DNA of 64,000 nt. It comes from Kitasatospora phosalacinea. Its GTDB lineage: Bacteria; Actinomycetota; Actinomycetes; Streptomycetales; Streptomycetaceae. The notes beneath the pieces were generated by a model. It saw only the letters and a program-made list of their open reading frames with translations. It searched no databases and was not told the DNA's origin. The translations under genes were made by a program, and so were the position numbers. Positions 10,647-60,940 of this stretch are shown in pieces (within the stretch, counting starts at the first letter, position 1; each line of letters begins with the position of its first letter). The stretch lies in contig NZ_JNYE01000019.1 of NCBI RefSeq assembly GCF_000717185.1, forward strand, positions 45,473 through 109,472, read 5' to 3'.

Positions 10647-11104
10647 TCCAATTCTGCCCGACCGTGGTGCTCGGCCGGTCCGCCCAGGCGGGCGAGGAAC
10701 TCGGCGTGGTGGGCGCTGACGACCGGGAGGTCGTCGAGCGGCGCCCAGCGGTGGGCGTCGTGCTCGGTGAGTGCGACGGGCGTGCCGTCGGGGACGGCGG
10801 CGGTGAAGGCGAACTGGCGGGCCCGGACGCCGGCCCGGCCGGTGAAGTCGGCGGCGTGCAGGTAGACGAGGTCGAGCCCGGTCAGGCCGGTCTCCTCGGC
10901 GAGCTCGCGGGCCGCGCCGACCAGCGGGTCCTCGTCCGGTTCGAGCGAGCCGCCGGGGATCTCCCACAGGCCGCCGAAGTAGTCGTCCGCCTTCCGGCGG
11001 ACCGTCAGGACCCGCCCGCTGCCGTCCTGGACGACGACGCCGCCCAGGAGCGCCTCGATGCCCTCGGCCCTGGCCTGCCGGACGAGCTGCTGGAGATCGG
11101 TCAC
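10643..11104 (-). CDS. NUDIX hydrolase
   Basis: A 153-residue pyrophosphohydrolase with a perfect Nudix box: G then x5 E x7 R-E-L-A-E-E-T-G-L around residues 53-75. This box coordinates magnesium and cleaves nucleoside diphosphates linked to another moiety. The substrate cannot be told from sequence. The GTG start at 11104 (V-T-D-L-Q-Q-L) is preferred over upstream codons because the upstream sequence is low-complexity and a GGGGGC stretch precedes this GTG. It is co-oriented with the reductase gene downstream. Confidence 0.9.
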   Translation of the reverse strand: MTDLQQLVRQARAEGIEALLGGVVVQDGSGRVLTVRRKADDYFGGLWEIPGGSLEPDEDPLVGAARELAEETGLTGLDLVYLHAADFTGRAGVRARQFAFTAAVPDGTPVALTEHDAHRWAPLDDLPVVSAHHAEFLARLGGPAEHHGRAELD

Positions 11105-11292
11105 CGCGGTGCCCCCGTTCGTTCGTGTGTCTCCCGACCCTAGCGACGCCCACCGACAGCCCCGCGGGCCGCGGGCCGCGGCCGGGAGGCCCGACCGGGA
11201 GGCCCGACCGGGTGTCACACTCCGCTCCCCGGACGCCTCTCGGGTCCGGGCGGGGCGTCGGCACCGTCCGCGGCACCGGGAGGAGCGGGTAA

Positions 11293-58490: not shown

Positions 58491-59174
58491 TTAGCGGTGG
58501 CGGGTGCCGCGGGCCGTGGTGGGGACGGTGAGGCGGTGGGGGCGGTCGGCGGGGGCGGCGAGGAGGTCGTCGAGTTGGCTGGTGACGGTGGCGCGCAGGT
58601 CGTCCTCGTCGGTGAACTCGTGGTCCTCGAACAGGGAGTGGCCGGTCCACATCAGGTTGGCGCAGACCTGGGGCGGGACCTGGCCGGTCTGGGCGCCGAG
58701 GCCGACCAGGGCGACGGAGGCGATGCTGCCGGGGGTGGCGGCGTTCTGCCGGTGGACGGCCTGGAAGGCGGCGGCGCAGGCGAGGGCGACGTTCAGCGTC
58801 TGGCTGACGTCCTGCGCGGAGGTGCGCATGGTGGGGGTGGAGATCAGGAAGCGGGGCACGGCCGCGCCGGAGGGCACGCAGACGGCGCCGCCGACCTTGA
58901 GCTCGCCGCCGTGGCCGTCGCGGATGGCGCGCTGGACGCGCAGCTGGATGCCCGCGCCGAGGTGCCGCTTGATCACGGCGTCGAGGCCGCCGTCCATCCG
59001 TCCGCGGGAGTTGGTGGGCGTGACCCAGGCGTCGACGTCCACGTCCAGGATCGAGCCGGTGCGGATCTCCACGCCCGGGGTGCCGGCGAACGCGGTGCGC
59101 CAGGCGGCCACCACGTCGGTGTTGAGGTCGGTAAGGACCACGCGCAGCGGCTCGGGGGCGTGCTTGACGGTCAT
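58491..59174 (-). CDS. Macrodomain protein divergent from UDG-ART gene
   Basis: A 227-residue macrodomain protein. It begins L-R-V-V-L-T-D-L-N-T-D-V-V and G-V-E-I-R-T-G-S-I-L-D-V-D-V-D-A-W-V-T-P-T-N-S-R-G-R-M-D-G-G-L-D, which is the ADP-ribose-binding loop arrangement (N in the position of the macrodomain asparagine, G-G-x-D motif). Later V-P-R-F-L-I-S-T-P-T-M and A-S-V-A-L-V-G-L-G-A-Q-T-G fit the second ligand loop. Such domains bind or remove ADP-ribose. It starts 140 bases from the divergent gene encoding an ADP-ribosyltransferase fusion, suggesting a reversal or antidote role. ATG at 59174 with ACGGAG upstream. Confidence 0.88.
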   Translation of the reverse strand: MTVKHAPEPLRVVLTDLNTDVVAAWRTAFAGTPGVEIRTGSILDVDVDAWVTPTNSRGRMDGGLDAVIKRHLGAGIQLRVQRAIRDGHGGELKVGGAVCVPSGAAVPRFLISTPTMRTSAQDVSQTLNVALACAAAFQAVHRQNAATPGSIASVALVGLGAQTGQVPPQVCANLMWTGHSLFEDHEFTDEDDLRATVTSQLDDLLAAPADRPHRLTVPTTARGTRHR

Positions 59175-59314
59175 GCGGGTGAACTCCGTTCGGCCGGTGG
59201 CTCGTTGTCGGTTCCGACGCTACCGGCGGGCACTGACAGCTCCGGGTCGGCGGCCTGTCGGCGGCGGGGCCTAGCGTGATCTTCGATCGCACCGCCTCCC
59301 GGTTGGAGACCGCC

Positions 59315-60940
59315 ATGTCCGAACCCACCCCGTCCGCCGCCGACCCGAACGACCCGCTGGGGCTCGCCGAGCTGTTCAAGGGCGGTGGCGAGGAGTGGTT
59401 CCCGGTGCTGAAGCGGTCGATCGAGCTGCATCGGGACGCGGCCTCGTTCATCGGGCCGAACCGTCCTCAGGACGTGGTGCCGGTGCGGGAGTTGACGTTC
59501 CAGGCGCTGAAGCCGAACCCGCCGGGCAAGTGGAAGGTCGTGGTGTTCGGGCAGAACCCGTACCCGCGGCCGGAGAGCGCGACCGGCATCGCGATGTTCG
59601 ACAACACCTTCCAGGACTGGAAGGACAGCCAGTTCGGCCGGGTGGTGAGCATCCGCTGCATCATCAAGGCCGCGGCGATGTGGAAGTACGGCATCCCGAA
59701 GAAGACGCCGATCGCCGACCTGCGGGCGCTGCTGGCGCAGCACGGCACCGTGCAGCCGCCGGAGTGGTTCCAGGCGATGCTGACCCAGGGCGTGCTGCTG
59801 CTGAACGCGGCGCTGACGGCGAGCAGTGACGGGTCGACCTCCCCCGCGGTGCACACCAAGTTCTGGAAGCCCGTGGCGGAGAAGATCGTGGAGGAGGTCC
59901 TGCGGGCCAAGCAGGAGGGTCCGGAGGAGGACCGCGGGGTGGTGTTCGCCTGGTGGGGGACGCACGCGCGGGCGCTGAAGCAGTCGGTGGAGTGGATCGC
60001 GCGGCGCTACCCGGACGTGCAGGTGCGGCACATCGACCACCCGAACCCGGCGGCGCAGGGCGACGTCTTCTGCGACGGCGAGCACTTCGCGCAGGTCAAC
60101 GCGGCGCTGGAGGGCCTGGGCGCGGACCCGGTGGACTGGCTGCCCGGCGCGGGCTGGCAGGCCGCGGCCGCCGCCGAGGGCCGCGCCGACGAGGGGACGG
60201 CCTCCCGGATGGGCGCGTTCATCGCCTCCACCATGGAGCTGCACCAGCTGTACCTGGAGCGGCTCGCCTCGGTGAAGGACGAGGGCCTCGAACTGCCGCC
60301 CGTCACCGGCGTGTTCGACCTGGAGCGGTTGGGCTTCCGGGAGGCGGTGGAGCCGGTCGCGGCGCTGCTGCGCGGGCTGGAGCGGCACGTCGGCTCGGCG
60401 CACGAGTTCGGCAAGCGGCACGCGGACGCCGCGGCGGGCGCCACCGCGGGCGGGCTGGACGCGGAGGCGGTCGCGGCGCTGCACCTGTACACCTGCGAGT
60501 CGGCGTTCTACCGCGAGCTGAACGCGGCGCTGCGCCACCCGGACCGGGCCCGGCTGGCCCCGTACCTGCCGTACCTGCGGCTGCTGTTCGACGCGGTCGG
60601 CCGCCTGCCGGTGCGCCCGGAGCCGCTGTGGCGGGGCGTGGCGCTGGACCTGCGGGCGCAGTACCCGCTGGGGCGGACGGTGACCTGGTGGGGCGTCTCC
60701 TCGTGCACCTCGCGCCCGGCGGTGGCCCGCTCCTTCCTCGGCAGCCGGGGCCGGCGGACGCTGTTCGAGGTGCGCCCGGCCCGGGCGGTGGGGATCCGGC
60801 AGTTCTCGGCGTTCACCGAGGAGGAGGAGTACATCCTGCTGCCCGGCACCCAGTTGACCGTCACGGACGTGGTCGCGGAGCGCGGCGGGCTGTGCACGGT
60901 GACGCTCACCGAGTCGGCGGACGGGCCGCTGGTGTCCTGA
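59315..60940 (+). CDS. Uracil-DNA-glycosylase-like / ADP-ribosyltransferase fusion
   Basis: A 541-residue two-domain protein. Residues about 20-280 are UNG-like: V-V-V-F-G-Q-N-P-Y-P at 75-84 (canonical G-Q-D-P-Y-H, with the water-activating Asp replaced by Asn), L-L-L-N-A-A-L-T at 161-168, F-A-W-W-G-T-H-A at 211-218 and H-P-N-P at 242-245. After a linker, about 390-541 form an R-S-E ADP-ribosyltransferase: W-R-G (439-441), V-S-S-C-T-S (461-466), and F-T-E-E-E-E-Y-I-L-L-P-G-T at 500-512, with the E-x-E catalytic pair at about 503/505. The ATG at 59315 follows GGAGA; a GTG at 59276 is less likely. No signal peptide, so it acts in the cytoplasm, perhaps on DNA or RNA. Divergent from the macrodomain gene. 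Confidence 0.9.
   Translation: MSEPTPSAADPNDPLGLAELFKGGGEEWFPVLKRSIELHRDAASFIGPNRPQDVVPVRELTFQALKPNPPGKWKVVVFGQNPYPRPESATGIAMFDNTFQDWKDSQFGRVVSIRCIIKAAAMWKYGIPKKTPIADLRALLAQHGTVQPPEWFQAMLTQGVLLLNAALTASSDGSTSPAVHTKFWKPVAEKIVEEVLRAKQEGPEEDRGVVFAWWGTHARALKQSVEWIARRYPDVQVRHIDHPNPAAQGDVFCDGEHFAQVNAALEGLGADPVDWLPGAGWQAAAAAEGRADEGTASRMGAFIASTMELHQLYLERLASVKDEGLELPPVTGVFDLERLGFREAVEPVAALLRGLERHVGSAHEFGKRHADAAAGATAGGLDAEAVAALHLYTCESAFYRELNAALRHPDRARLAPYLPYLRLLFDAVGRLPVRPEPLWRGVALDLRAQYPLGRTVTWWGVSSCTSRPAVARSFLGSRGRRTLFEVRPARAVGIRQFSAFTEEEEYILLPGTQLTVTDVVAERGGLCTVTLTESADGPLVS

Follow-up and report, generated by a model that had tools for sequence, protein, structure and literature searches.

A putatively disarmed uracil-DNA glycosylase fold fused to an ADP-ribosyltransferase and paired with a macrodomain gene: a candidate DNA-damage-inducible ADP-ribosylation module in Kitasatospora and its relatives

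Introduction

Pairs of an ADP-ribosyltransferase (ART) and a macrodomain protein are known, and among them the DarT/DarG systems invite comparison with the locus reported here, which lies in a 64,000-nucleotide stretch of Kitasatospora phosalacinea (contig NZ_JNYE01000019.1, positions 45,473 to 109,472; the whole stretch is called the window) and consists of two divergent genes 140 bp apart, one for a macrodomain protein and one for a fusion of a uracil-DNA glycosylase (UNG)-like domain with a C-terminal ART domain. We propose that this pair may form a DNA-damage-inducible, self-contained and reversible ADP-ribosylation module, which a pseudo-UNG domain would direct to uracil-containing or otherwise abnormal DNA, a proposal drawn from sequence comparison and structure models whose chances we judge to be evenly balanced. 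As in DarT/DarG, the transferase and macrodomain genes are adjacent and the activity is probably exerted on or at DNA; the locus differs in its arginine-type ART of family PF01129, its fused UNG-like putative reader, its RecA-NDp-type motif and a macrodomain protein that matches DarG only weakly. A sequence-only reading of the window had likened the locus to DarT/DarG; the two genes are indeed adjacent, but the likeness is one of analogy only, and membership of DarTG is not supported, as the fusion has no DarT match and the DarG match is weak.

Other described systems resemble single parts of the locus. ART2.2, Vis, Tre1 and HopU1 share with the fusion the fold and the R-S-ExE triad; Tre1 is partnered by a DraG/ARH-type immunity protein, whereas the present transferase is fused to a UNG fold and has a macrodomain partner instead of an immunity protein of that type. 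The family-1 glycosylase of Nitratifractor type (5x3g, 5x3h) differs from the fusion family, which has lost the catalytic Asp and gained a C-terminal ART. PARP1 and PARG offer a functional analogy only, a lesion reader and writer with an eraser; the fusion has no PARP family match, and its reader would be a UNG fold. The Streptomyces coelicolor gene SCO6735 is likewise a macrodomain gene of an actinobacterium and has a RecA-NDp promoter, and its product removes thymidine-linked ADP-ribose (PMC5087735, PMC9411070); the gene is UV-induced (PMC5087735). It differs from the macrodomain gene described here in that its product is of the TARG1/ALC1-like class, an amino acid permease gene lies upstream, and the accessible sections of these sources mention no UNG-ART partner. 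A related idea has been realized by hand, in that targeted DNA ADP-ribosylation was engineered with a DarT2 fusion (PMC13368585).

The sequence-only reading had known of no described system in which the transferase is fused to a uracil-DNA glycosylase fold, and we too found no description of a UNG-fold/ART fusion or gene pair in the full-text literature (subscription papers and preprints being outside the search), nor in the accessible part of PMC11377751. While ART-macrodomain pairs are known, the use of a disarmed DNA glycosylase to aim the transferase thus appears to be new to the literature searched, and the features that seem new here are the loss of the Asp with a kept pocket, the RecA-NDp-type promoter and relatives in other phyla as well as in choanoflagellates and algae.

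Results

In silico analysis assigned the N-terminal part of the fusion protein to the family-1 UNG fold and its C-terminal part to the ART fold, with a PF01129 match of 39.5 bits that exceeds the Pfam gathering cut-off of 22.3; the sequence-only reading had likewise proposed a fusion of a glycosylase-like domain with an R-S-E transferase, and the triad is intact. A structure model built from 26 close relatives was poor (predicted local distance difference test score, pLDDT, of 54) and was replaced by a second model. Full-length conservation across 80 loci led us to reject a chance or mis-framed open reading frame, and in databases the protein is annotated as 'uracil-DNA glycosylase' or as 'ADP-ribosyltransferase domain-containing protein'. 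None of the Pfam UDG families matched the fusion at E 0.1, and the curated NCBIfam uracil-DNA glycosylase models, with a cut-off of 162 bits, gave no score higher than 76.7.

With the positions of the UNG part numbered as in E. coli Ung, we compared 95 rows (alignment A2), with rows gapped at a site omitted from its count (30/95 at the Asp site). The catalytic Asp of motif A was present in 0 of the 65 relatives that cover the site (N 49, S 11, T 3, A 1, C 1), while the uracil-pocket positions were kept: Gln63 in 65/65, Tyr66 in 62/65, Phe77 in 69/73 and Asn123 in 86/88. In motif B, the His187 position was His in 80/89, and of the residues that follow, given here by their numbers in the fusion, Asn244 was kept in 80/89 and Pro245 in 88/89. 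The closest solved relative, the Nitratifractor UNG (5x3g), has the same PYPRPESA stretch preceded by the Asp (GQDPYPRPESA), and two other Ung paralogues found in the same genome retain this residue (GQDPYH and GQDPYP); the loss of Asp therefore seems to be a derived state, and ordinary Ung remains present in the cell. The GQDPYP Ung-like gene (L003, on C54 of the same genome) is additional to the classical GQDPYH Ung of L002. Given the 0/65 count, we kept the fusion out of the glycosylase class and rejected an ordinary Ung. Since the Asp is absent while the base pocket and the ART triad are conserved, the UNG part probably serves as a reader and does not excise bases. We infer that base excision was lost and base binding retained, such that the disarmed fold probably still recognizes a base such as uracil, which fits the suggestion of the sequence-only reading that the UNG fold presents a base to the transferase.

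The conservation of the ART catalytic residues is given in Table 1; within the S-x-T motif, T465 is Thr in 65/70 rows and Ser in the remaining 5. A profile search against solved structures returned Vis, Tre1, ART2, HopU1 and ExoT for this domain, the fold matches agreed, and the Foldseek list also included XopAI and C3 exoenzymes. Among sequence profiles, no DarT family matched the fusion (Pfam at E 0.1, PADLOC at E 1) and no PARP catalytic domain was found, PF01129 being the sole Pfam match at E 0.1.

The protein encoded by the neighboring gene is a macrodomain protein by its matches to PF01661 (E 7e-11, 42.6 bits vs. a Pfam cut-off of 22) and phrog_2613 (E 2e-37). A GG-x-D-A segment, which we take to resemble the active-site Asp region of MacroD, is invariant in the 17 rows of an alignment that omits L063, L084, L091 and L106. 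The best solved-structure profile match was macroH2A1.1 (E 0.001), and matches to DarG were weak (E 0.039 in PADLOC; E 0.037 for the DarG structure 5m31 in the profile search). Some macrodomains reverse thymidine-, uracil- or phosphate-linked ADP-ribose (PMC9411070, PMC13036486, PMC11833690); by analogy, such activities would suit a nucleic-acid acceptor.

The sequence-only reading had placed a macrodomain gene 140 bases from the fusion on the other strand, and this neighbor proved to be a constant one. Two outcomes that the same reading had named as refuting it, a C-terminal domain lacking the transferase fold and homologues without any macrodomain neighbor, were thus not observed. For the comparison of loci, the best 80 of 215 relatives in a genome-contig scan were kept, so that identities are biased upwards; the loci are mutually related, and counts are not independent. 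They comprise Streptomyces, Kitasatospora, Yinghuangia, one further actinobacterium and 22 loci from other genera, among them Nocardia, Nonomuraea, Microtetraspora, Micromonospora, Catellatospora, Actinospica and Dactylosporangium. The macrodomain gene was adjacent in 78/80 loci, and in the other two (L058, L061) the contig ends at the start of the fusion. Orientation was divergent in 65 of these 78 loci and co-directional, with the macrodomain gene first, in 13, of which 3 have macrodomain, UNG and ART parts as a single open reading frame; a 335-kb Streptomyces plasmid carries the same three parts in one annotated coding sequence of 2406 nt (801 codons). In a plasmid collection, all 4 records with a full-length fusion, of which some are chromosome-sized, also hold the macrodomain gene nearby. 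A near-complete fusion was present in 38/150 genomes (G000 included; 37 in a single frame and G056 in two frames, with G012 and G086, which hold fusion fragments only, left out of the count), and a macrodomain ortholog adjoined it in 38/38 by hand count (30/38 also by tblastn). G047, which is not among the 38, has only a fragment of the macrodomain gene, at a contig start. The pairing of the macrodomain and fusion genes is not due to chance. With a rough caller of open reading frames, other gene families recurred in at most 8/80 loci; as the macrodomain gene is constant and no other family recurs more widely than this, the unit is one of two genes.

Between the two genes lie sites that resemble RecA-NDp promoters (Table 1), scored against a consensus that we took to be TTGTCAGTGGC-N6-TAGGGT. 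The macrodomain-directed motif scored at least 13 in 60/77 loci (47/64 divergent, 13/13 co-directional), a count that omits L094, which has no intergenic stretch by start estimate, as well as the two loci lacking the macrodomain gene; 59 of the 60 motifs end 35-65 nt before the macrodomain ATG. Scores of at least 13 occurred in 0/1280 Markov-shuffled and 1/520 flank stretches, with control lengths taken from the divergent intergenic stretches, whereas the 13 co-directional loci were scored over stretches of 300 nt. A genome pattern drawn up to fit the macrodomain site of the window and its relatives, TGTCRGTGSN7TAGSGT, had 4 exact matches in the 8.6-Mb genome vs. 0 in the reversed control, preceding recA, a SWIM zinc-finger gene, a NUDIX gene of the window and the macrodomain gene; the recA match, 44 nt before the likely start (RecA Pfam E 4e-143), serves as a positive control. 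A variant pattern, which excludes the macrodomain site by design, had 6 matches, including those at recA, NUDIX and SWIM, plus C18, C29 and C105. From these sites, the macrodomain gene looks like one under a DNA-damage promoter, and in the damage response PafBC acts through RecA-NDp promoters (PMC8223512, PMC6789036). The NUDIX hydrolase gene, whose GTG start is at 11104, has its site (window 11137-11158, minus strand) about 32 nt upstream and is a second candidate for damage regulation in the window, and the SWIM site (L149 866-887, plus strand, same genome) is directly before its gene.

A search with the UNG part returned 132 proteins at E 0.001; among the 120 matches listed were Planctomycetota, Gemmataceae and Acidobacteria metagenome bins as well as eukaryotes, the latter with identities of 58% for Salpingoeca rosetta, 54% for Monosiga brevicollis, 52% for Prymnesium and 49% for Gracilaria, together with a symbB protein (presumably of a dinoflagellate) and MMETSP transcripts. 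The ART is present in the relatives P0182 (Pfam), P0228 and P0244 (precomputed domains), whereas the Monosiga protein as reported has no ART match in Pfam; gene models or losses therefore vary. In P0223 (392 aa), Pfam places a WWE domain, which is an ADP-ribose reader, in fusion with a UNG-like domain. In a 42-row tree with many unlabelled rows, the 7 labelled eukaryotic rows did not form one clade, and we draw no inference on transfer from it.

Table 1. Coordinates of the paired genes, their domains and motifs in the window
Feature	Position	Strand	Remarks
Macrodomain protein gene	58491-59174	-	227 aa; candidate ADP-ribosyl hydrolase or reader, partner of the fusion
RecA-NDp-type motif towards macrodomain gene	59217-59239	-	14/17 consensus positions; ends 42 nt before macrodomain ATG
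RecA-NDp-like motif towards fusion gene	59255-59277	+	13/17 positions; weaker, less conserved
Fusion gene	59315-60940	+	541 aa; pseudo-UNG domain and R-S-E ART; alternative GTG start 59276
UNG-fold domain	59342-60160	+	fusion residues ~10-282
UNG motif A, GQNPYP	59549-59566	+	Asn81 at the E. coli Asp64 position
LLLN, Asn164	59795-59806	+	uracil-recognition Asn, Ung Asn123 position
UNG motif B, HPNPAA	60038-60055	+	His242 at the Ung His187 position
ART domain	60275-60937	+	fusion residues ~321-541
ART catalytic Arg440 (LWRG)	60632-60634	+	Arg 71/71
ART S-x-T motif SSCTS, residues 462-466	60698-60712	+	S462 69/69; S463 69/70
ART ExE motif, Glu503 and Glu505	60821-60829	+	Glu 67/68 at each

Discussion

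In the proposed damage-inducible module, DNA damage or foreign DNA would switch the gene pair on, and the disarmed UNG domain would dock on DNA that contains uracil, has an abasic site or is abnormal in some other way, and would hold this DNA without excising the base. The tethered ART would then move ADP-ribose from NAD+ onto the DNA there or onto a protein at the site, and the macrodomain protein would remove this mark or restrain the ART. A more ambitious form of this proposal, which we judge less likely than not, is that of a lesion reader, writer and eraser, in which a non-cutting UNG reader with its own ART and a co-regulated macrodomain eraser would act under damage control, with relatives that extend from actinobacteria to planctomycetes and, among eukaryotes, to choanoflagellates and algae.

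Several of our data weigh against the damage-inducible module, and they are best considered together with the explanations that compete with it. On the side of the promoter, the fusion-directed motif scored at least 12 in only 29/64 and at least 13 in only 14/64 divergent loci (vs. 6/520 and 1/520 in the flank stretches) at variable distance, and the mycobacterial PafBC motif was apparently not conserved in Streptomyces venezuelae in an initial search, according to the accessible part of PMC9380542. As for the eraser, the macrodomains that act on thymidine or uracil belong to the TARG1/DarG class in the sources available, and the profile matches do not place our protein there. The nearest ARTs appear to be of a protein-directed, arginine-specific type: Vis, Tre1, ART2, HopU1 and ExoT, which the profile and fold matches agree on, are arginine-specific ExE enzymes. 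Macrodomains are not known to remove arginine-linked ADP-ribose, and an arginine-type ART is for this reason awkward beside a macrodomain eraser. These ART matches speak for a protein-directed mono-ART in which the UNG fold would only recruit the enzyme to DNA-bound proteins or bind UNG-binding proteins, leaving the DNA unmodified, with the macrodomain reading or removing the protein mark; we regard this as improbable, given that the constant eraser candidate is a macrodomain and not an enzyme of ARH/DraG type, and that pure protein docking would have no need of the conserved base-pocket residues. The Asp position itself is Asn in 23/23 covering rows among the close relatives of the window (alignment A1), and TDG/MUG glycosylases use Asn at this place of motif A, such that the fusion may have weak glycosylase activity. 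With Asn at 49/65 in motif A and His at 80/89 in motif B of the wider alignment, one might postulate a still-active TDG/MUG-like glycosylase in which the ART tail would act either on the abasic product or on the protein of which it is part; however, Ser, Thr, Ala or Cys at motif A in 16/65 indicates that the catalytic side chain is not maintained, the genome has two Asp-bearing Ung paralogues, and we consider this explanation very improbable.

A toxin-antitoxin or abortive infection system, in which the ART would be a toxin for DNA or RNA with the macrodomain as its antidote, as in DarT/DarG, and a trigger might be, for example, a phage whose DNA is modified or rich in uracil or one that brings a UNG inhibitor, is also rather unlikely in our view and shares much of the evidence. 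The patchy occurrence of the gene pair (38/150 genomes) and its plasmid copy would also suit a mobile toxin or defense unit, and the strict pairing, the co-directional form with the macrodomain gene first (13/78), the single open reading frames and the varied neighborhoods all point the same way, as do the macrodomain relatives in phages and the broken fusion of G056 next to an intact macrodomain gene. The flank scan, a descriptive one with no control set, covered 108 of the 139 proteins prepared, drawn from 17 of the 80 loci, and can be read on either side. Its strongest PADLOC matches were AbiLi (4e-90), AriA (1e-38, the better of two AriA-like proteins), AbiLii (2e-30) and mad3 (2e-26), of which the AbiLi-like and AriA-like proteins would favor a toxin; however, the 17 PADLOC families found at E 1e-8 each occur in only 1-3 of the 108 proteins, and no clear defense island emerged among them. 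An identity of 72-75% in the 22 other-genera loci (among the best 80 of 215) is high for a toxin module, and the missing DarT and weak DarG matches likewise count against one. At L009 (~887-896), the macrodomain gene is apparently frameshifted beside an intact fusion, which counts against the toxin as well as against the damage-inducible module; such a frameshift is odd for an essential antitoxin, or it reflects a sequencing error. The anti-phage or toxin-antitoxin role that the sequence-only reading had put forward thus gained no specific support, and the promoter evidence favors a DNA-damage response.

If the reader-writer-eraser form of the proposal is true, ADP-ribosylation signalling at damage sites would exist outside the PARP family, and bacteria and some protists would own an undescribed way to mark damaged or foreign DNA. 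With only two genes, the pair would then be a genetically simple model for ADP-ribosylation at damage sites in bacteria, and it would be a candidate for a new layer in the DNA-damage response of actinobacteria or in defense against DNA with unusual bases. Engineered inactive UNG probes exist as readers of uracil-DNA, and the fusion would be a natural reader comparable with them. Because homologues also occur in protists, the question could be put to the test in eukaryotes as well.

Neighboring genes and phage relatives

A Pfam scan of the 108 flank proteins returned mixed ordinary families. No relative was found in a pattern-based scan of viral contigs, and 39 INPHARED records matched in the Ung region only, at less than 30% identity; on these results we rejected a phage-borne module, although absence from these collections is not proof. 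Phage macrodomain proteins (records H67-H84) are about 30-36% identical to the macrodomain protein of the window, and several of these relatives adjoin tail-fiber genes (Gifsy-1, SEN4/5) or sit in Sinorhizobium phages.

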